Shown here: one piece after another, positions 45,552 to 59,115 of the stretch | Position numbering within the stretch: the stretch's first letter is position 1 | Layout of the letters: every line of letters starts with the position of its first letter | Origin: Bacteroidota bacterium | GTDB lineage: Bacteria > Bacteroidota > Ignavibacteria > UBA10030 | Direction of reading: 5' to 3' | DNA length: 64,000 nt | NCBI GenBank assembly: GCA_025454835.1 | Contig: JALONQ010000014.1 | Span: 1 to 64,000, forward strand | Notes under the pieces: generated by a model | What the model was told of the DNA's origin: nothing | What the model saw: the letters and a program-made list of their open reading frames with translations, nothing else | Database searches by the model: none | Made by a program: the position numbers and the translations under genes

Positions 45552-46052
45552 CTAGTACTGCGTGCGGCCTTGCTGGCGGGCCCAGGCCTCGAACGGGCCG
45601 GTCCGCTCATCGATCGGCAGATGAATCGTGGCGAGGGATCGCTCGCCCAGCGGGAGGGGCAGTTCGTGGTAGATGCGCTCGTCGTCGAATCCAGCCGCTG
45701 CCGCCTCGGCCCTCGAGGCCGCGAACATGACCCGCGCCGGACGCGCCCAATAGATGGCTCCCAGGCACATCGGGCAGGGCTCGCAAGACGCGTAGATGTC
45801 GCACCCCTCCAGATGAAAGGTCTCCAGCATCCGACAGGCCTCGCGGATGGCGACGATCTCGGCGTGCGCTGTCGGGTCATTCGTGGCCGTCACGCGATTC
45901 ACGCCGCGTGCGATGATGCGGCCTTCCCGGACGATGACGCATCCGAAGGGCCCTCCGCCGTTCGTAACGTTCTGCTCGGCCAGCCGGACCGCTTCGCGCA
46001 GATGCACGGCTTCGGCCCGCCTCACGTCCGCGCCTTGTGCGCTCTCAGGCAC
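45552..46052 (-). CDS. guaD: guanine deaminase, CDD/GuaD type
   Basis: About 166 residues of the zinc-dependent cytidine/deoxycytidylate deaminase superfamily. The zinc site is 'PTAHAEIVAIREAC' (His63, proton-shuttling Glu65) and 'CEPCPMCLGAIYWARP' (Cys93, Cys96). It matches the Bacillus-type GuaD from memory along its whole length, including the domain-swap C-terminal end with a final tyrosine ('WARQQGRTQY'). The reaction is guanine to xanthine plus ammonia. It starts at a GTG (46052) that overlaps the upstream deaminase by eight bases, with GGAAG eight bases before it; the ATG at 46124 would lie deep in the neighbour. Confidence 0.87.
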   Translation of the reverse strand: MPESAQGADVRRAEAVHLREAVRLAEQNVTNGGGPFGCVIVREGRIIARGVNRVTATNDPTAHAEIVAIREACRMLETFHLEGCDIYASCEPCPMCLGAIYWARPARVMFAASRAEAAAAGFDDERIYHELPLPLGERSLATIHLPIDERTGPFEAWARQQGRTQY

Positions 46053-46497
46053 CGATGTCTTCCTTCCACACGTTGGGATGCGCGGCGATGAAGTCCCGCA
46101 AGATCCGTTCGCAGGCTTCGTCATCGATCGTGTCGAACTGCACCCAGTGGTCCTTCATGAAATGCTGAGCCCCCGTGAAGTTCGTCGCCTCTCCAGCGAC
46201 GACATATTCGATGCCGAACTGAACGATCGCCCCGGCGCAGAGATGGCAGGGCATGAGCGTTGAGTAAAGAATGGTCCCCTTGTAGGAAGACTGGCGGCCG
46301 GCGTTCCTGAGGCACTCGATCTCGGCGTGGGCCGTCGGGTCTCCGCTCTGGACGCGTCGATTGTGTCCCCGCCCAATGATGACGCCGTCGCGCACGAGGA
46401 CGGAGCCGACGGGAATGCCCCCCTCGGCGAGCGACATCCTGGCCTCGGCCAACGCTTCGCTTATGAACTCATCTGCCCGGTCAAGGAGTGATGCCAT
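46045..46497 (-). CDS. cytosine deaminase of the yeast Fcy1 type
   Basis: A 150-residue deaminase with His57-Ala-Glu59 ('PTAHAEIECL') and Cys84/Cys87 ('LMPCHLCAGAIVQFGI'). Resemblance to yeast cytosine deaminase, as I remember it, extends to 'GRGHNRRVQ', 'VVAGEATNFTGA' and the C-terminal 'WKEDIGA' (yeast ends near WFEDIGE). That family converts cytosine to uracil and is unrelated in fold to the large bacterial CodA enzyme. The ATG at 46497 gives a compact start; the frame continues to 46551. It is first in a two-gene salvage operon with guaD. A closely related purine or pterin deaminase role cannot be excluded. Confidence 0.8.
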   Translation of the reverse strand: MASLLDRADEFISEALAEARMSLAEGGIPVGSVLVRDGVIIGRGHNRRVQSGDPTAHAEIECLRNAGRQSSYKGTILYSTLMPCHLCAGAIVQFGIEYVVAGEATNFTGAQHFMKDHWVQFDTIDDEACERILRDFIAAHPNVWKEDIGA

Positions 46498-46627
46498 GGT
46501 CGTTCTTCGTATGGTCACCCCTATCTTAACAAAAACGCGATTAGGACACAAAGGCCGGCGCGCGCGGTCGAAGTTGGAGCGCTCAGAATGACTGCGTACA
46601 TTGGGCCACCTCTTCAGGAGACTCTCC

Positions 46628-47374
46628 GTGGAATGGATCGCTGACCCTCAGGGTTGGATCGCCCTTGTCACCTTGACGGTGCTCGAGATCGTCCTCGGCA
46701 TCGACAACATCATCTTCATTTCCATCCTGGCCGGCAAGCTGCCGGCGGCGGAGCAACCCCGTGCCCGGACCGTCGGGCTCGGGATGGCCATGCTCACGCG
46801 CATCGGGCTGCTGTTCTCGATCACGTGGATCATGCGGCTGACGGAGCCTTGGTTCACGGTGCTGGCCCATGAGATCTCTGGACGGGACATCATCCTTCTT
46901 GTCGGCGGCTTGTTCTTGATCGCTAAGAGCACGCACGAGATCCACAATAAGCTGGAAGGATCCGAGGAGGCTGGCCGTGCGGGCGCACGCAGCGCTTTCT
47001 GGAGCGTCATCGTGCAGATCATGATCCTCGACATCGTGTTCTCGCTCGATTCTGTCATTACCGCCGTCGGCATGGCGAGCCATCTCGGCATCATGGTCAC
47101 CGCCGTCGTCATCGCCGTGGCGTTCATGATGGCGTTCGCCGGTCCGATCAGCCGGTTCGTTCACGACCATCCGACCGTCAAGATGCTGGCGCTGGCCTTC
47201 CTGCTCCTCATCGGCGTCACATTGATCGCCGAAAGCTTCGACCAGCACATCTCGAAGGGCTACATCTACTTTGCGATGGCATTCTCGGTCTTCGTCGAGA
47301 TGCTGAACCTCCGGATGCGCGCGAAGCACCGGAAGCCGGTTGTGCTGCGGAACAGCCCGGTGGGCCTGGCATAG
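46628..47374 (+). CDS. TerC-family integral membrane protein
   Basis: A 248-residue membrane protein with seven or more hydrophobic segments and the family's acidic membrane motif 'LEIVLGIDNIIFISILAGKLP' split by the second half 'IMILDIVFSLDSVITAVGMA'. TerC/Alx proteins are linked to tellurite resistance and metal-ion (manganese) export, perhaps loading exoenzymes with metal. The GTG at 46628, with AGGAGA seven bases upstream, gives the family's usual 'EWIADPQGW' beginning. The CitE-like gene starts two bases after its stop. Confidence 0.9.
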   Translation: MEWIADPQGWIALVTLTVLEIVLGIDNIIFISILAGKLPAAEQPRARTVGLGMAMLTRIGLLFSITWIMRLTEPWFTVLAHEISGRDIILLVGGLFLIAKSTHEIHNKLEGSEEAGRAGARSAFWSVIVQIMILDIVFSLDSVITAVGMASHLGIMVTAVVIAVAFMMAFAGPISRFVHDHPTVKMLALAFLLLIGVTLIAESFDQHISKGYIYFAMAFSVFVEMLNLRMRAKHRKPVVLRNSPVGLA

Positions 47375-47376
47375 CC

Positions 47377-48732
47377 ATGATCGACGAACGACAACCTGTC
47401 CACGTCGTCTACGGCGGGGCCCATCTGTTCAAAGCGTCGACGGTGCCCAAGCTTGGAGGGCTGGCCGTCCGACACCTCGAAGCACATGCGAAAGACGCCT
47501 TCGTGTTTGCAGAGGCCGTGGGCCTGCCAGAGGCGTCCCTCTTGCCGCGGTCTCTACACGCTCGCATCGCCCTCTTGCGGACACTCACCAAGGGCGGCGA
47601 ACAGGCCCGGGTCGTGCATCCCGCCGCTTGGACGGCCTTCAGCATCCACCGCCGGGTGCTCGAGAAGCTCCGAAGCCATGCGGTCGAGGACCTCAGGATC
47701 GATTTCGAAGATGGCTATGGATTCCGGAGCGATGCCGATGAGGACTTCCACGCCGTACGGACGGCGCAGGAGACCGTCGAAGCCATGGCCGCTGGTTCTC
47801 TGCCGCCATGCTTCGGCATTCGCGTGAAGCCGTTTGCCGGATCGTCGAAGCCGCGCGCCCGTCGTACGCTAGAGCTCTACCTGCAACGCCTGTTGACCCG
47901 GACCGAAGGTCGCCTTCCATCGCACTTCGTCGTCACGTTGCCGAAGATCGCGACCGTTGAAGAGGTGTTCGAGTTCGTCCGATTGCTCGAGGCTTTGGAG
48001 CGCACGAACGGACTCCCGGCGCGCTCGCTTCGACTCGAGATCATGGTCGAAACGCCGCAGATGATCGTCTCGTCGAAAGGGGCCAGTCTCTTGCCCGATG
48101 TGCTCGCGGCCTGTGACGATCGATGCCGCGGCCTGCATCTCGGCTTATACGACTACCTGTCATCCATGGACGTCGTCGCTTCGGCACAATCCTACCGGCA
48201 TCCGATGGCCGACCATCTGCGCGTGATCACCAAGGCGGCGGCCGCGTCGACGCGATTGTGGCTGTCCGATGGAGCTACGAACCGGATCCCGCTCGGACCA
48301 CACCGTGGAGAGAAGCTGACCAAGGCTCAAGGCCCCGAAAACCAGGCCGCCGTTCATGCCGGCTGGCGGGAGATCTTCGCGAACGTCGAGCATTCGCTTC
48401 ACTTCGGCTACGATCAGGGCTGGGACCTGCATCCGTCACAGTTGCCTCCGCGGTATGCGGCGGTGTTCGGGATGTTCATCCGGGAAGAGGAGACGACCGC
48501 TGTGCGCCTACGCTCGTTCCTGGAGATGGCGGCGCAAGCGATGCTGAGAGGACAGCAATTTGACGATGCGGCCACGGCTCAGGGATCGCTGAATTTCTTC
48601 CGCCGCGGCATTGCCGCCGGAGCATTGAACGAGGATGCGCTTCTCCGTGCCGGGCTCCGGCGTGAGGAGCTGCGATCTCGCTCCTTCGCCGAGATCATCG
48701 ACGGGCGTCGAAGAGACGCCTCCAGGGCCTGA
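47377..48732 (+). CDS. HpcH/CitE-like (DUF6986) aldolase-fold protein
   Basis: A 451-residue protein of the PEP/pyruvate TIM-barrel superfamily that holds HpcH and CitE. Metal and substrate loops are visible: 'LRIDFEDGYGFRSD' (acidic metal site), 'LRLEIMVETPQMI' (metal-binding Glu) and 'GLHLGLYDYLSSMDV'. It is longer than CitE (about 290) and matches the DUF6986 group sometimes annotated as phosphoenolpyruvate kinase. The reaction is unproven; cleavage or condensation of a 3-hydroxyacyl or pyruvate-type substrate is likely. It follows TerC with a two-base gap and ends in a strong terminator. Confidence 0.75.
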   Translation: MIDERQPVHVVYGGAHLFKASTVPKLGGLAVRHLEAHAKDAFVFAEAVGLPEASLLPRSLHARIALLRTLTKGGEQARVVHPAAWTAFSIHRRVLEKLRSHAVEDLRIDFEDGYGFRSDADEDFHAVRTAQETVEAMAAGSLPPCFGIRVKPFAGSSKPRARRTLELYLQRLLTRTEGRLPSHFVVTLPKIATVEEVFEFVRLLEALERTNGLPARSLRLEIMVETPQMIVSSKGASLLPDVLAACDDRCRGLHLGLYDYLSSMDVVASAQSYRHPMADHLRVITKAAAASTRLWLSDGATNRIPLGPHRGEKLTKAQGPENQAAVHAGWREIFANVEHSLHFGYDQGWDLHPSQLPPRYAAVFGMFIREEETTAVRLRSFLEMAAQAMLRGQQFDDAATAQGSLNFFRRGIAAGALNEDALLRAGLRREELRSRSFAEIIDGRRRDASRA

Positions 48733-53184: not shown

Positions 53185-53988
53185 ATGTGGACCTCCGTGC
53201 TTGAGATCGCCGGCCTCTCCTTCGCCGTTCTCTTCACCCTGATGTGCTTCGTCTGGCTATGGTTCCGCCGCATCGATAACGCCGCCGTCGTCGATGTGGG
53301 TTGGGGGAATGGATTTGCCATCGCCGCCGTCGTGTCGTTCTTCCTCGCGCCTGGGTGGTTCGAGCGGAAGCTGCTGATCGCGGCGCTCGTCGTGTTCTGG
53401 GGAGAGCGGCTGACACTGCACCTCCTGTTCGACAGGATCCTCGGCGGCAAGCCGGAAGACGGCCGCTACCAGGCCATGCGGGCGAAGTGGAAGACTGACC
53501 TGCCCAAGAGGTTCTTCTACTTCTTCCAGTACCAGACGGTGCTGGTGGTCATCTTGTCGGTGCCCTTCTTCCTGGCGATGCAGAACCCCGAGCCCTCGTT
53601 CCACGCGCTCGAGCTGATCGCCGCCGGGATCTGGCTTGTCGGTGTGATCGGCGAATCGGCAGCTGACGCGCAGTTGAAGAGGTTCAAGGCCGACCCGGCC
53701 AACAAGGGTCGAACGTGCCGGGCGGGTCTGTGGCGTTTCTCGCGCCATCCGAACTACTTTTTCGAGTGGGTCATCTGGCTTTCGTACGGCGTTTTCGCGT
53801 TGGCTTCGCCGTGGGGCTGGATCGGGCTCATCGCTCCCGCCGGGATGTGGTATATCCTGACGCGGGTCACGGGGATCCCCCTGACCGAAGAGCAGTCGCT
53901 CCGGTCGCGCGGCGACGACTATCGACAGTATCAACGGACGACGAACGCCTTCGTCCCGTGGTTCCCAAAGTCCGACACTGGTGCCTGA
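53185..53988 (+). CDS. DUF1295 (steroid 5-alpha-reductase-like) membrane oxidoreductase
   Basis: A 267-residue membrane protein with about six hydrophobic segments. The C-terminal half carries DUF1295 / steroid 5-alpha reductase-like motifs: 'GLWRFSRHPNYFFEWVIWLSYG' split at the conserved 'SRHPNYF', and 'EEQSLRSRGDDYRQYQR'. Relatives reduce carbon-carbon double bonds with NADPH or methylate membrane substrates. AAGGGA precedes the ATG. Placed between the desaturase and a CFA-type methyltransferase, it is a candidate for reducing a methylene or unsaturated lipid intermediate. Confidence 0.82.
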   Translation: MWTSVLEIAGLSFAVLFTLMCFVWLWFRRIDNAAVVDVGWGNGFAIAAVVSFFLAPGWFERKLLIAALVVFWGERLTLHLLFDRILGGKPEDGRYQAMRAKWKTDLPKRFFYFFQYQTVLVVILSVPFFLAMQNPEPSFHALELIAAGIWLVGVIGESAADAQLKRFKADPANKGRTCRAGLWRFSRHPNYFFEWVIWLSYGVFALASPWGWIGLIAPAGMWYILTRVTGIPLTEEQSLRSRGDDYRQYQRTTNAFVPWFPKSDTGA

Positions 53989-53989
53989 A

Positions 53990-55093
53990 ATGATCGACGC
54001 GTTGCTTGAGCGGAACATCTTGCCGGACGCGGCCATCCGCTTCGGGATCCGACGTCTGCTGCGCCGACGGTTGCGCGATGAGCGAGCCGCGAGTGAGCCC
54101 GCGCAGCTTGAACGTCTGCAGGCCCTTGTGGCGCGGCTGCGGACGAGTCCCATCGCGGAGCAAACGCACGCCGCCAACGAGCAGCATTACGAAGTGCCGA
54201 CGGAGTTCTTCAAGTTCGCGCTCGGCCCGCATATGAAATACAGCTCTGCCTACTATCGGGAGGGGGTGGAGGACCTGGCGACCGCCGAGAAGGACATGCT
54301 GACGCTCACGTGCGAGCGTGCCGGCCTTGAGAACGGCCATCGGATCCTCGAGCTCGGGTGCGGATGGGGCTCGCTCACCCTGTTCATGGCGGCCCGTTTC
54401 CCGAAGGCGCGCATCACCGCGGTCTCGAATTCCCGGACGCAGAAGGAGCACATCGACGCTGAGGCCAAGCGCCGCGGCCTGAAGAACATCCGGGTGGTCA
54501 CGGCCGACATGAACACGTTCACGACGGCTGACCGATTCGACCGCATTGTATCGGTGGAGATGTTCGAGCACATGCGGAATTACGAGCAGCTGCTCCGCAA
54601 GGTCGCCCGCTGGCTGGCGGCCGACGGACGCCTGTTCGTCCACATCTTCACCCACAAGGAGCTGGCGTATCTCTTTGAAGTGCAGGGACCGACCGACTGG
54701 ATGGCGAAGTACTTCTTCAGCGGGGGAGTGATGCCGAGCGACGACCTGCTGCTCTATTTCGCCGACGACCTGTCGATCGAGAAGCACTGGCGCGTGAGCG
54801 GAACGCATTATCAGAAGACCTCACGGGCCTGGCTCGACAACATGGACCGGAACCGTGACCAGATCATGCCGATCCTTGCTCGGACCTACGGCCAGAATCA
54901 TGCGACGAAGTGGTGGGTGTACTGGCGAGTCTTCTTCATGGCTTGCGAGGAACTGTGGGGCTTCCGGGGCGGGAATGAGTGGATGGTCAGTCATTACGTG
55001 TTCCGGCAGAAAGGTCGACAGCCTGAAGCGCAGGGGCCCCGGCGGAAGACCGCCGGTGCACCCAACCTCCGGCGACCGGCGGCCTCCAACTGA
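53990..55093 (+). CDS. CFA-type SAM-dependent methyltransferase, first paralogue
   Basis: A 367-residue methyltransferase of the cyclopropane-fatty-acyl-phospholipid synthase family. The SAM loop is 'ILELGCGWGSLTLF' (about 119-132). Aligning with E. coli Cfa from memory, the active-site Glu is kept (Glu193, 'SVEMFEHM'), as are His (His218, 'LFVHIF') and Tyr (Tyr274), while the Cys of 'YSCGYW' is Ser86 ('KYSSAYY'). It lacks the N-terminal ~90-residue domain of classical Cfa. It likely transfers a methyl or methylene group to an unsaturated acyl chain. The start is ATG 53990 (GTG 53981 is in frame). The TGATG overlap links it to the next gene. Confidence 0.83.
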   Translation: MIDALLERNILPDAAIRFGIRRLLRRRLRDERAASEPAQLERLQALVARLRTSPIAEQTHAANEQHYEVPTEFFKFALGPHMKYSSAYYREGVEDLATAEKDMLTLTCERAGLENGHRILELGCGWGSLTLFMAARFPKARITAVSNSRTQKEHIDAEAKRRGLKNIRVVTADMNTFTTADRFDRIVSVEMFEHMRNYEQLLRKVARWLAADGRLFVHIFTHKELAYLFEVQGPTDWMAKYFFSGGVMPSDDLLLYFADDLSIEKHWRVSGTHYQKTSRAWLDNMDRNRDQIMPILARTYGQNHATKWWVYWRVFFMACEELWGFRGGNEWMVSHYVFRQKGRQPEAQGPRRKTAGAPNLRRPAASN

Positions 55094-55821
55094 TGACCAT
55101 CATGAACATCAACGGCATCATCATCCTTGCTGCGACACTCGCGGCGCAGTCTCCGGTGGACCAGGTCCCGCGGACGGCGTACGACGGTCTTGCGGTCGAC
55201 TTGAAGTCGCGTCGTCCGGTGTATACTGAACGGCATGAGGAGGTCATCGCTGACGGGAAGCGGGTGGGACTGCGCTCGACCTACCTCAGCCCGGACGGAG
55301 TGGTGTGGGCGACCCGCATTGTGGATTTTTCGAAGAGCCAGTTCGTGCCGGATTTCGAGTTCGAAGACCGACGGACGGGCTACCGCGTGGGAGCGGAAGG
55401 GCGCGGCGATTCGGTCCGCTTCTTCGAACGCGAAGACCGCCTGGCACCGCTCGTGTCGCAGACCTTGCGCATTCCCGGCACCGCCGTGGTCGATGCGGGC
55501 TTCAATAACTATGTGCAGGCCAATTGGGCGACGATCGCCTCCGGCAAGAAGACGTACATCAACTTCGGCGCCCCGTTTGCGATGGATTACTACGGCTTTC
55601 GCGTCTACAAGGACGGCGAGCGCACGGAGGGCGGTCGCCGCTTCATGACCGTGAAGCTCGACATCGACAATTTTGTGATCCGTCTCTTCCTCGACCCGAT
55701 CGTCCTCACCTACGACATGGACGCCCGCCGGTTGGTCTCCTATGAGGGGATCTCGAACATCCTCAACGATGCGGGAGACAGCTACTTCGTCCGCATCTCG
55801 TACGACCCCTACGGTCCCTGA
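55093..55821 (+). CDS. secreted protein of unknown function in lipid operon
   Basis: A 242-residue protein with an N-terminal hydrophobic segment ('INGIIILAATLAAQSP') that looks like a signal peptide cut near residue 18. The rest is beta-rich, without cysteines. I do not recognise a family; stretches such as 'YLSPDGVVWATRIVDFSK' and 'MTVKLDIDNFVIRLFLDPIVLTYD' suggest a lipocalin-like or lipid-binding beta-sandwich fold, which is a guess. It occupies the place where related gene clusters carry a DUF3833-type protein, but does not look like that family. It starts within the previous stop (TGATG). Confidence 0.75.
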   Translation: MTIMNINGIIILAATLAAQSPVDQVPRTAYDGLAVDLKSRRPVYTERHEEVIADGKRVGLRSTYLSPDGVVWATRIVDFSKSQFVPDFEFEDRRTGYRVGAEGRGDSVRFFEREDRLAPLVSQTLRIPGTAVVDAGFNNYVQANWATIASGKKTYINFGAPFAMDYYGFRVYKDGERTEGGRRFMTVKLDIDNFVIRLFLDPIVLTYDMDARRLVSYEGISNILNDAGDSYFVRISYDPYGP

Positions 55822-55826
55822 CATCC

Positions 55827-57095
55827 ATGGCCGAGCGCATCGCTATCATCGGCACGGGAATCGCCGGCATGGGAGTGGCGCATTTCCTCCACGTCCGCGC
55901 CGACCTCGTGCTGTACGAAAAGAACACCTATGTCGGCGGCCATACGAATACCGTCACGGCCGACGAAGACGGCACCTCCGTACCGATCGATACGGGCTTC
56001 ATGGTCTTCAACGACGTCACCTATCCGTATCTCCTCCGGCTGTTCCGTGAGCTGAACGTGCCCGTCAAGCCGACGTCGATGTCGTTCAGCGTTCAGCACG
56101 TCCCTTCCGGACTCGAATGGTCGGGCTCGAGCATCAACCACCTGTTCGCCCAACGCCGGAACCTCTTCCGACCTTCGTTCGTGCGCTTCCTCTTGCAGGT
56201 CAACCGGTTCAATCAGGAGAGCCCGAAGATCCTGGACGATGCTTCAATGGTCGACGTGTCGCTGGCCGACTACGTCCGGCAGGCCGGTTTCGGCGAGGAC
56301 TTCGTTCATCATTACTTGATCCCCATGTCGTCGGCCGTCTGGTCGACGCCTCCGGACAAGATGCTTCGTTTTCCGGCCGCGACGTTGGTTCGATTCTTCA
56401 AGAACCATGGATTTCTCGGCTTGGACACGCAACATCAGTGGTACACGGTCGACGGCGGTTCGCGGGAATACCGTGAGCGGCTGATCGCTCCGTTCCGAGA
56501 CCGCATTCGCGTCGGCGTCGGGGCCGCTCGCGTGACCCGTACCAAGAGTGGTGTGGAGGTGCGCGGTTCAGACGGTTCCCTTGAGCGGTTCGACAAGGTG
56601 GTCCTGGCAGGCCACGCGGATGAGTCGTTGGAGATCCTCGACGCGCCGACGGACATGGAGCGTCGACTTCTCAGCGCTTTCACGTTCCAGCCGAACACGG
56701 CCACCCTGCACACCGACGAGAGCGTCATGCCCCGAACAAGGCTGGCGTGGTCGTCGTGGAACTACCGCACGGACGCCGCATCGGACGGGTCGTCCCTTCC
56801 GTCGACCGTGTACTGGATGAACAGCCTGCAGGGGGTGTCGAAGCGGCGGAACTATTTCGTTTCCATCAACGATCCGGGCAAGGTCGACCCGTCGAAGGTT
56901 CTGAGGCGCATCGAGTATACGCACCCCGTCTTCACGGTTGAATCGGGCATCGCACAGAGAGGCCTGGACCAGCTGAACGCGAACGGGCCTGTCTACTTCT
57001 CCGGTGCGTGGTTTCGATACGGATTCCATGAGGACGGACTCCTGTCGGCCGTACGACTGGTGCGCCAGATGACGGGCGAGGCGATCTGGTCGTGA
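55827..57095 (+). CDS. FAD-dependent amine-oxidase-type oxidoreductase
   Basis: A 422-residue cytoplasmic flavoprotein. The Rossmann FAD loop is at the start ('IAIIGTGIAGMGVAHFL'), followed by 'LYEKNTYVGGHTNTV', the arginine/glycine motif of amine-oxidase and phytoene-desaturase-like enzymes, and a C-terminal 'VYFSGAWFRYGFHEDGLLSA', where FAD is bound again. This subgroup regularly neighbours DUF1365 and CFA-type genes in many bacteria, and related flavoproteins act in furan- or methyl-branched fatty-acid synthesis. Its stop overlaps the GTG start of the DUF1365 gene. Substrate not shown. Confidence 0.87.
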   Translation: MAERIAIIGTGIAGMGVAHFLHVRADLVLYEKNTYVGGHTNTVTADEDGTSVPIDTGFMVFNDVTYPYLLRLFRELNVPVKPTSMSFSVQHVPSGLEWSGSSINHLFAQRRNLFRPSFVRFLLQVNRFNQESPKILDDASMVDVSLADYVRQAGFGEDFVHHYLIPMSSAVWSTPPDKMLRFPAATLVRFFKNHGFLGLDTQHQWYTVDGGSREYRERLIAPFRDRIRVGVGAARVTRTKSGVEVRGSDGSLERFDKVVLAGHADESLEILDAPTDMERRLLSAFTFQPNTATLHTDESVMPRTRLAWSSWNYRTDAASDGSSLPSTVYWMNSLQGVSKRRNYFVSINDPGKVDPSKVLRRIEYTHPVFTVESGIAQRGLDQLNANGPVYFSGAWFRYGFHEDGLLSAVRLVRQMTGEAIWS

Positions 57096-57865
57096 ATTCC
57101 TGCCTCTACGACGGCGTCGTCATGCACCACCGGTTGCGGCCGTTGCGCAACCGGTTCGTGTATTCGGTCTACATGTTCTACCTCGACCTCGACGAGCTCG
57201 ACGACCTCCACCGGAACTTCCGGTTCTTCAGTCGGAACCGGTTCAACCTGTATTCATTCCGCGACGCCGACCACCTCCGGATCACGGCGGGGGACCTTCG
57301 GGCGAACGTCGTGGAGTATCTGCGGAGGAACGGGGTCACGGCAGATGTCGGACGGATCATGCTACTGACGAACGTGCGAGTGCTCGGATACGTGTTCAAT
57401 CCCGTCTCCTTCTACTACTGTTACGATCGCTCTGGACAGCCCTTGTGCGCCGTGCCCGAGGTGGGCAACACCTTCGGCGAACAGAAGGCGTATTTCATGG
57501 GGGCGGACACCCGAACGGAGGACGGTTTCCGGCGCGTGGTCCCGAAGATGTTCTACGTGTCTCCCTTCGTCGACCTCGACACGACCTTTGAGTTCCATCT
57601 TCGCTTGCCCGGCGATCGACTGCAGGCCCAGGTGGACGATCTGCAGGACGGGGACCGGTTCTTCCTGAGCGCCCTGACGGGCGTCCGGAAACCTTTGACC
57701 GATGGCGCGATGTTATACCATTTCTTCCGGATTCCGTTCATCACGCTCAAGGTCATCTGGCTGATCCACTGGCAGGCGCTCAAGCTGTGGCGGCGCAAAC
57801 TGCCCTTCCGGCGCAAGACGCAACAACCCGAACTTCAACAGGATATCCTGCTATGGAACAAGTGA
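57092..57865 (+). CDS. DUF1365 protein
   Basis: A 257-residue member of DUF1365, recognisable by 'DGVVMHHRLRPLRNRFVYSVYMFYLDLDEL' (split across its first 35 residues) and 'VLGYVFNPVSFYYCYDR'. The family nearly always sits between an FAD oxidoreductase and a CFA-type methyltransferase, as here, but its reaction is unknown. One hydrophobic stretch near the C-terminus may touch the membrane. It starts at a GTG overlapping the previous stop (GTGA) and its last 13 bases overlap the next gene. Confidence 0.87.
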   Translation: MNSCLYDGVVMHHRLRPLRNRFVYSVYMFYLDLDELDDLHRNFRFFSRNRFNLYSFRDADHLRITAGDLRANVVEYLRRNGVTADVGRIMLLTNVRVLGYVFNPVSFYYCYDRSGQPLCAVPEVGNTFGEQKAYFMGADTRTEDGFRRVVPKMFYVSPFVDLDTTFEFHLRLPGDRLQAQVDDLQDGDRFFLSALTGVRKPLTDGAMLYHFFRIPFITLKVIWLIHWQALKLWRRKLPFRRKTQQPELQQDILLWNK

Positions 57866-59115
57866 CCACGCATTCTCTCACCGACCGCCTGTCGGTCCCC
57901 CGACGAGGTACTCTGTCCGAGCGCGTCTTCCTCCGAACGCTGAGCGGCATCCGGCATGGCCACCTGCAGGTGACGCTGCCGTCGGGTGAGGTCGTCTCGT
58001 TCGGTGACCCCGAGTCGCCCGCGCGGGCGAGCCTGCACGTCATCCGCGAGGACTTCTACCGAAAGGTCATGTGGTACGCCGACATCGGGTTTGCCGAGGC
58101 GTACATCGACGGCGACTGGGAGACGGATCATTTGACGAACCTCCTGAAGCTCATGCTCCTCAACCTCGAGGACCTCCCATTGTCGGGCTCCAAGCGGCGC
58201 CTCTTGTCGATCAACCTGCTGAAGTTTGTGAACCGTTTCGCGCACCGCCTCCGGCCAAATTCGGTGCGTGGCAGCCGCTCGAACATCTCGGAGCACTACG
58301 ATCTCAGCAACGAGTTCTTCTCGCTCTGGCTGGACCCCACGATGATGTACTCGAGCGCCCGGTTCGCGCGTCCCGACATGACGCTCGAAGAGGCGCAGGT
58401 GGAGAAGGTGGACCGTCTCTGCCGCAAGCTGCGGTTGCAGGCGGGCGACCGCGTGTTGGAGATCGGTTCCGGATGGGGCGGTTTCGCGGTCCACGCCGCG
58501 AAGCGCTACGGGGCCCGCGTGACCACGGTGACGATCTCGAAAGAACAGTACGCCATCGCGGTCGAGCGCGTCGCTCGCGAGGGCGTGGCGAACCTCGTCG
58601 AGGTGCGACTGCAGGACTACCGGACGATCACCGGGACCTACGATAAGCTGGTGTCGATCGAGATGCTCGAAGCCGTGGGCCACGAGTACCTTGAGACGTA
58701 TTTTGCGAAGTGCCAGGAAGTGCTGACGAAGAACGGCCTCATGGCGTTCCAGGTCATTACATCGCCCGACAGCCGGTACGACGAGTTCCGCAAGGGCGTC
58801 GACTTCATTCAGAAGCACGTCTTCCCCGGTACGCTCCTCCCGTCGATCGCGGCCATGATGTCGGCCGTGCGGAAGACGGGCGGCATGCACTTGTTCGACC
58901 TGGAGGACTTTGGACTTGACTATGCGCGGACGCTCGCGACATGGCGCAGCCAGTTCAACGCGCGTCTGGACGAGGTGCGAGGGCTGGGTTTCAACGAGCG
59001 GTTCATCCGAAAGTGGAACTACTATCTGTCGTATTGCGAGGCCGGTTTTGCGATGCGGAACATCTCCGTCGTCCAGATGGTCTTCACCGGCCCCAACAAC
59101 GCCGTGCTGCGATAG
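57853..59115 (+). CDS. CFA-type SAM-dependent methyltransferase, second paralogue
   Basis: A 420-residue enzyme with the full cyclopropane-synthase layout: N-terminal lipid-binding domain (about 20-140), SAM loop 'VLEIGSGWGGFAVHAA' (201-216), and the C-terminal 'YLSYCEAGFAMRNISVVQMVF'. Compared with E. coli Cfa from memory, Glu273 and Tyr357 are kept, but the Cys is Ser168 ('MYSSARF') and the active-site His is Gln300 ('LMAFQVITS'). This pattern suggests a product other than a simple cyclopropane, such as a methyl-branched or methylene chain. The ATG at 57853 lies inside the DUF1365 gene, preceded by AGGA. Last gene of the operon. Confidence 0.86.
   Translation: MEQVTTHSLTDRLSVPRRGTLSERVFLRTLSGIRHGHLQVTLPSGEVVSFGDPESPARASLHVIREDFYRKVMWYADIGFAEAYIDGDWETDHLTNLLKLMLLNLEDLPLSGSKRRLLSINLLKFVNRFAHRLRPNSVRGSRSNISEHYDLSNEFFSLWLDPTMMYSSARFARPDMTLEEAQVEKVDRLCRKLRLQAGDRVLEIGSGWGGFAVHAAKRYGARVTTVTISKEQYAIAVERVAREGVANLVEVRLQDYRTITGTYDKLVSIEMLEAVGHEYLETYFAKCQEVLTKNGLMAFQVITSPDSRYDEFRKGVDFIQKHVFPGTLLPSIAAMMSAVRKTGGMHLFDLEDFGLDYARTLATWRSQFNARLDEVRGLGFNERFIRKWNYYLSYCEAGFAMRNISVVQMVFTGPNNAVLR

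Follow-up and report, generated by a model that had tools for sequence, protein, structure and literature searches.

A Fcy1-family deaminase gene paired with a guanine deaminase gene in Ignavibacteria, and its relatives in purine-catabolism neighbourhoods

In yeast cytosine deaminase (Fcy1, hereafter yCD) the ligand is contacted by Glu64, Asn51, Asp155 and Gly63, and Trp152 and Phe114 matter for product release (PMC11000218, in excerpt). The cytosine/isoguanine deaminase of Escherichia coli, CodA, is an amidohydrolase (PMC6186785, in excerpt), and the guanine deaminase of Bacillus subtilis is a member of the cytidine deaminase superfamily (PMC5270733, in excerpt).

The locus described here lies in a window of 64,000 nucleotides (the whole stretch of DNA that was analysed) and joins a gene of the Fcy1 family (protein P0001) to a gene for a guanine deaminase (GuaD) of the cytidine deaminase fold (protein P0002). 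The pair exists and is conserved, and for the most part it is unexceptional: both genes belong to known families, in a combination specific to one lineage. Less expected is that, in part of the order, the Fcy1 family is tied to purine-catabolism genes. Order-wide surveys covered 98 genomes; G000 denotes the genome of the window, and f1, f3, f5, f6 and so on denote families in its order.

The two genes and their products

Table 1. Position, strand and conservation of features at the locus (yCD numbering in brackets; counts refer to prokaryotic rows)
Feature	Position	Strand	Remarks
P0001, Fcy1-family (yeast-type) deaminase gene	46045..46497	-	150 aa, ATG start; upstream member of pair
P0002, cytidine-deaminase-fold guanine deaminase gene (GuaD)	45552..46052	-	166 aa from GTG 46052
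Overlap of the P0001 and P0002 frames	46045..46052	-	eight bases GTGCCTGA; holds only if GTG 46052 is the start
Zinc/proton-shuttle motif H57-A58-E59 (H62-G63-E64)	46321..46329	-	H 71/71, E 70/71
Zinc ligands C84, C87 (C91, C94)	46237..46248	-	71/71 each
C-terminal lid W144-K-E-D147-I-G149 (W152-F-E-D155-I156-G157)	46051..46068	-	W 70/71, D 71/71, I 68/71, G 68/71
TerC-like membrane protein gene	46601..47374	+	divergent; shares 76% identity over 246 aa with a G007 gene
DUF6986 gene	47377..48732	+	PF22484, 451 bits over cut-off 27

Both proteins pass the Pfam cut-off of the PF00383 deaminase model (25 bits), P0001 with 84 and P0002 with 98 bits, and they are 43% identical over 83 aa, which bears out the original prediction that they belong to one zinc deaminase superfamily. 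Their Pfam matches are to the deaminase superfamily only, with no amidohydrolase sequence. Neither passes any NCBIfam cut-off; the NCBIfam TadA model (cut-off 150) gives each of them 84 bits. The eight-base overlap that had also been predicted stands if P0002 starts at GTG 46052 and falls if it starts at GTG 46025, nine codons downstream, which leaves a 19-base gap. The latter start is the better fit to the length of B. subtilis GuaD, homology beginning at residue 17. Elsewhere the pair shows no overlap: of the other 10 paired genomes, 9 have a spacer of about 4-64 bases (mechanically picked starts; G002 left out). The genes are probably co-transcribed. Because of the E-values and because 11 genomes of four genera conserve the pair, chance is excluded and both genes and their pairing are confirmed as real.

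The best PDB match of P0001 is yCD (E 9.4e-34, 43% identity over the aligned stretch), followed by TadA (E 1.3e-17), and the nearest named record, 73% identical, is from the ignavibacterial MAG RIFCSPLOWO2_12_FULL_56_21. In a tree of 88 rows (72 on the Fcy1 branch, namely 71 prokaryotic and one yeast, 10 TadA-like and 6 GuaD), the bootstrap of which is not fully settled (0.988), P0001 and yCD share one 100/100 branch of 72 rows, apart from the TadA-like and GuaD rows. Phylogeny had been set as the refutation test, and it groups P0001 with yCD, not with TadA or purine deaminases. The AF2 model of P0001 (38-row alignment; pLDDT 94.8, pTM 0.91) matches yCD (1uaq) through the C-terminal helix with Z 27.2 and an rmsd of 1.2 Å over 146 aligned residues; Z is about 22 for TadA and about 18 for the guanine deaminase NE0047. 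The best PDB match, the 100/100 branch and the lack of meaningful similarity to CodA uphold the predicted membership of the Fcy1 family rather than of CodA. CodA has matches in none of the 98 genomes of the order in a search run without a positive control. As for viral relatives, four pattern matches yielded none that was confirmed; 34 phage records match, none at an identity of at least 60%, and the 15 phage matches listed comprise 3 annotated as tRNA adenosine deaminase and 12 unannotated.

P0002 has B. subtilis GuaD as its best PDB match (E 4.5e-50; residues 17-165 of 166 aligned) and keeps the AGFDD motif. With the GuaD rows on a 100/100 branch of their own, its identification as GuaD agrees with what had been proposed.

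The H57-A58-E59 motif, C84 and C87 of P0001 are invariant in alignment A1. In yCD numbering, N51, H62, C91, C94 and D155 are kept in all 71 prokaryotic rows and F114 in 66 of them. P0001 ends in W-K-E-D-I-G-A, and the 'EDIG' motif that had been noted at its C-terminus is indeed present in the translation; TadA-like rows do not conserve the lid, and the GuaD rows are gapped at 153-157. P0001 has V33, A63, S86, M89, L93, Q100 and K153, whereas yCD has I33, G63, T86, S89, M93, M100 and F153; given the first six of these, the pocket floor and entry therefore differ. Family rows lean either to the set found in P0001 (A63/C67/S86/M89/L93/Q100) or to G63/A67/T86/S89/M93/L100, which is closer to yeast (M100 in yeast), and some are mixed, e.g., L110.

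Two members of the family with changes at conserved positions were also seen. One Fcy1-like copy (L094 1492-2004, genome G040) reads HAD instead of HAE, the catalytic Glu being replaced by Asp. On the atrazine plasmid pADP-1 (L109 7962-8438) the protein is diverged, its W152 and F114 positions being changed, and the gene adjoins one for a 126-aa ring-opening amidohydrolase; similar matches occur on plasmids of Aminobacter, Agrobacterium and Klebsiella. The pADP-1 protein is possibly a triazine or pyrimidine deaminase.

Distribution and gene neighbourhoods

An Fcy1-like gene is present at E 1e-30 or better in 27 of the 98 genomes. Family f1 has it in 12 of 32 genomes, and in 11 of these 12 a CDA-type GuaD gene lies directly downstream; the exception, G005, has no GuaD-grade match. 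The survey of the pair thus reveals a conserved two-gene unit, the genes being adjacent in 11/11 f1 genomes that hold both (4 genera), at 50-73% identity to those of the window. In f3, f5 and f6, GuaD adjoins the Fcy1-like gene in none of the 15 Fcy1-positive genomes; two f5 genomes (G016, G078) carry both genes on different contigs. The flanks examined at 42 loci (L002-L042, L078) and at four plasmid loci hold no second, GuaD-type deaminase. Across the order, 37 genomes have CDA-type GuaD and 40 have amidohydrolases that resemble guanine deaminase; the two are split by family and coincide in only 1 of 98 genomes.

The closest non-f1 relatives of P0001 in the order, 56-59% identical, belong to the sister family f3, and purine-catabolism genes lie beside or near the Fcy1-like gene in all eight Fcy1-positive f3 genomes. 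It stands between urate oxidase and XdhC genes in G037 and G028, adjoins XdhC in G032 and G029, is flanked by YgeY and a YgeW-like carbamoyltransferase in both G014 and G031, precedes the latter in G030 and is near YgeY in G025. The G037 order, in which the Fcy1-like gene occupies L117 8988-9428, is amidohydrolase, XdhA, XdhB, Amidohydro_1 gene (read as allantoinase from its context), allantoicase, OHCU decarboxylase, ORF6N gene, DUF6986, HIUase, urate oxidase, Fcy1-like and XdhC. The neighbourhood of G028 is alike; in G032, XdhC and the Fcy1-like gene are beside a G037-type set on the other strand, and G029 shows only XdhC on a 4.3-kb contig. In G014, G031 and G025 the Fcy1-like gene accompanies sets drawn from PreT/PreA, PALP, RnfC-like, BMC shell and YgeY genes, and G014, G030 and G031 also have XdhC and the YgeW-like carbamoyltransferase, which is below the YgeW cut-off. 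Clusters of the carbamoyltransferase/XdhC kind in G019 and G026 are without an Fcy1-like gene in the stretch examined, and none of the 19 Fcy1-positive genomes of f1, f5 and f6 has the gene and XdhC on one contig.

Three clusters of the reductive uric-acid type combine a BMC shell gene with an Fcy1-like deaminase gene (L114 923-11734, L116 6659-12862, L121 561-7443). Two copies that have stayed in place within purine clusters are broken: that of G031 (L100/L116) has an in-frame TGA, and that of G027 (L168 1767-2202), which lies between HIUase and XdhC, is split over two frames.

P0002 has a GuaD-grade match in none of the f3 genomes. Amidohydrolases of f2, f3, f4 and f6 that score about 150-290 bits with TIGR02967 were considered as separate guanine deaminases of the f3 operons; this was rejected, because none of the 98 genomes has an amidohydrolase over that guanine-deaminase cut-off and the three from these operons that were scanned all score above the cut-off for 5'-deoxyadenosine deaminase. 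A cross-table of genomes with either guanine-deaminase type (26/27 Fcy1-positive, 50/71 Fcy1-negative genomes) depends on that abandoned label and does not count as evidence.

The window itself retains traces of such surroundings (Table 1). The divergent membrane protein gene, which we take to be TerC-like, has its G007 counterpart in a purine neighbourhood, between allantoinase-like and XdhA genes; in the same genome a CDA-type GuaD gene comes right after XdhC. The DUF6986 product and its counterpart from the G037 purine operon share 45% identity over 449 aa. DUF6986 is over the cut-off in 14 of 98 genomes; of the 12 that remain once G000 and a 36-bit match in G072 are left out, 11 have XdhC, and in 9 it is at most about 8 kb from DUF6986 on one contig. 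The one without XdhC, G068, is 70% complete. G000, at 100% completeness, has DUF6986, and XdhC was not found. The other f1 pairs are without DUF6986. Searches of G000 gave no match to xanthine dehydrogenase (XDH, PF20256), XdhC or NCS1, and no PreA over the cut-off, the positive controls matching in each case; allantoicase gave no match either, nor did it in the control genomes. Upp is present (267 over 208 bits), a TadA-like gene lies elsewhere (C17:26977), and so does a RibD-like gene. Because DUF6986 and TerC-like genes are next door while G000 is without an XDH or XdhC match, the pair may have survived from a larger neighbourhood of purine-catabolism genes. Further along (53185-59115) are what we assume from their translations to be two cyclopropane-fatty-acid-synthase-like methyltransferase genes, with amine oxidase-like and DUF1365-like genes between them; this looks like a fatty-acid modification operon.

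Elsewhere, some Fcy1-like genes have nucleobase genes close by. The cytosine permease gene codB is directly downstream in Palleronia (510 bits over 326), an NCS1 symporter gene is divergent in L006 and L007, a dihydropyrimidinase gene is near in Parvibaculum L036 (587 over 393 bits) and likewise in L008, an amidohydrolase-type guanine deaminase gene (446 over 375 bits) is about 0.9 kb away in L002, and L036 also has a gene over the 8-oxoguanine deaminase cut-off (618 over 532 bits). Many other loci have unremarkable neighbours, e.g., UvrC, RecJ, diacylglycerol kinase, VIT1 and aldo-keto reductase, and in the ignavibacterial L003 (59% identity) the neighbouring genes encode a cupin and cysteinyl-tRNA synthetase. 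CodB as a general companion was dropped: BLAST with the E. coli and Palleronia proteins found it at 1 of 110 loci, 72 of which hold an Fcy1-like gene and several of which have only about 1.5 kb of flank, and did not pick up the NCS1 genes of L006 and L007, which are more distant. The case for pyrimidine degradation from PreA in L008 is weakened as well, since uric-acid clusters, too, contain PreA-type proteins (L114; UacX, PMC12507026, in excerpt).

Substrate, role and origin

The two genes would give two zinc hydrolytic base deaminases from one transcript. P0001 would bind free cytosine in a yCD-type pocket under the W-x-E-D-I-G lid, with Glu59 activating the zinc-bound water, and release uracil and ammonia; P0002, on the strength of its homology to GuaD, would convert guanine to xanthine and ammonia by the same zinc/glutamate chemistry. 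Uracil could then pass to UMP via Upp, and xanthine would be salvaged or lost, since xanthine dehydrogenase has no match. The unit would thus recycle bases and free ammonia, and the presence of Upp together with the lack of an XDH match makes salvage and ammonia release the likely purpose. Such a base-salvage operon releasing ammonia was the original prediction, of which the GuaD identity and the conserved unit are borne out. Its physiological role is presumably of this kind, but the genes around close relatives indicate purine catabolism no less than pyrimidine metabolism.

With moderate confidence, cytosine can be called the likeliest substrate of P0001. The conserved yCD pocket, a predicted fold closest to yCD, the grouping with yCD in the tree and the nucleobase genes near some family members all argue for it. 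It does not directly explain the purine neighbourhoods of the f3 relatives, G000 has no NCS1 permease match, and the second-shell differences from yCD and the Fcy1-like gene of G005 without a GuaD-grade match also count against it. A rival reading makes the ignavibacterial Fcy1-like enzymes base deaminases of the purine pathway, drawn into the breakdown of the purine ring and acting most probably on guanine, otherwise on adenine; P0001 would then be a second purine deaminase beside GuaD. Purine genes at 8/8 f3 loci fit this, as do the GuaD gene of G007, whose place after XdhC is comparable to that of the f3 gene beside XdhC, the lack in f3 of a GuaD-grade match or of an amidohydrolase over the guanine-deaminase cut-off, and the DUF6986 and TerC-like genes retained in the window. 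Even so it is rather unlikely: the pocket residues remain those of yCD, to which the predicted fold is also closest, and beside P0002, already a guanine deaminase by homology, a second one would be redundant in f1. The f3 amidohydrolases could themselves act on guanine, the f1, f5 and f6 genes share no contig with XdhC, the G019 and G026 clusters do without the gene, members elsewhere are near codB or dihydropyrimidinase genes, and the neighbours in L003 are the cupin and synthetase genes. Extended to the whole ignavibacterial branch, the proposal would be that this branch serves purine-ring breakdown as a guanine or general nucleobase deaminase, in urate oxidase/xanthine dehydrogenase operons and in clusters of the reductive uric-acid type that include a gene for a microcompartment shell protein, and that the window pair is an operon leftover in a lineage without xanthine dehydrogenase; this, too, is doubtful.

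A deaminase of the Fcy1 fold with a wider or another range of free bases, acting on 5-methylcytosine, isocytosine, creatinine, pterins or damaged bases, would suit the second-shell residues and the 8-oxoguanine deaminase-grade gene in L036; it seems quite improbable, given primary ligand-contact side chains that are those of yCD. Membership of the same superfamily and the second-best PDB match would speak for a tRNA adenosine deaminase of the TadA type, or for a TadA paralogue, an extremely unlikely identity when the tree separates P0001 from the TadA-like rows at 100/100, its 84 bits fall below the TadA cut-off of 150, G000 has a TadA-like gene elsewhere and TadA-like rows do not preserve the lid. 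TadA and RibD alike are ruled out by the tree, by the cut-offs and by the other copies in the genome. For the pair, the reading in which P0001 acts on cytosine is preferred.

The proposed bearing on the origin of the fungal enzyme is weakly supported. yCD falls inside an otherwise prokaryotic clade of 33 rows (98/97) that excludes P0001, but its branch is very long (3.24 changes per column), it is the one fungal sequence in the tree, and the AU test does not reject an all-prokaryote clade without yeast (p 0.218) or the 33-row clade without it (p 0.462).

The yeast-type cytosine deaminase, the enzyme that activates 5-fluorocytosine, thus belongs to a broad prokaryotic family vaguely named 'nucleoside deaminase', whose gene contexts make the true substrates testable. 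If the enzymes do act on purines, the name cytosine deaminase is wrong for a whole branch of the family.

Comparison with known systems

Bacterial Fcy1-like genes are widespread and, being already named 'nucleoside deaminase' in plasmid records, are not new; in a partial coverage of the literature, the titles and abstract openings among the matches listed hold no description of such proteins or of the pair. The plasmid proteins of Palleronia (L110) and pADP-1 (L109) are on the family branch of P0001, but their genes differ in neighbours, codB in the former and the ring-opening amidohydrolase gene in the latter. With E. coli CodA (E 0.048 over 43 aa, no meaningful similarity) P0001 has only the expected reaction in common. 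P0002 is homologous over nearly its full length to B. subtilis GuaD/GuaN (PDB 1wkq, 1tiy) and, unlike it, is the second gene of a pair. The main text of PMC12507026 is without the word 'deaminase'. The reductive uric-acid degradation cluster described there (YgeW/YgeX/YgeY/UacX) resembles L114, L116 and L121, which hold varying sets of YgeY, PALP, PreA-type and YgeW-like genes; the f3 clusters differ in having, in addition, a gene for a BMC shell protein and one for the Fcy1-like deaminase. The closest counterpart of P0001 remains Fcy1 of Saccharomyces cerevisiae (PDB 1uaq, 1p6o), with which it shares the fold up to the last residue and the zinc, catalytic and ligand-contact side chains; in contrast to yCD, P0001 is bacterial and its gene adjoins guaD.
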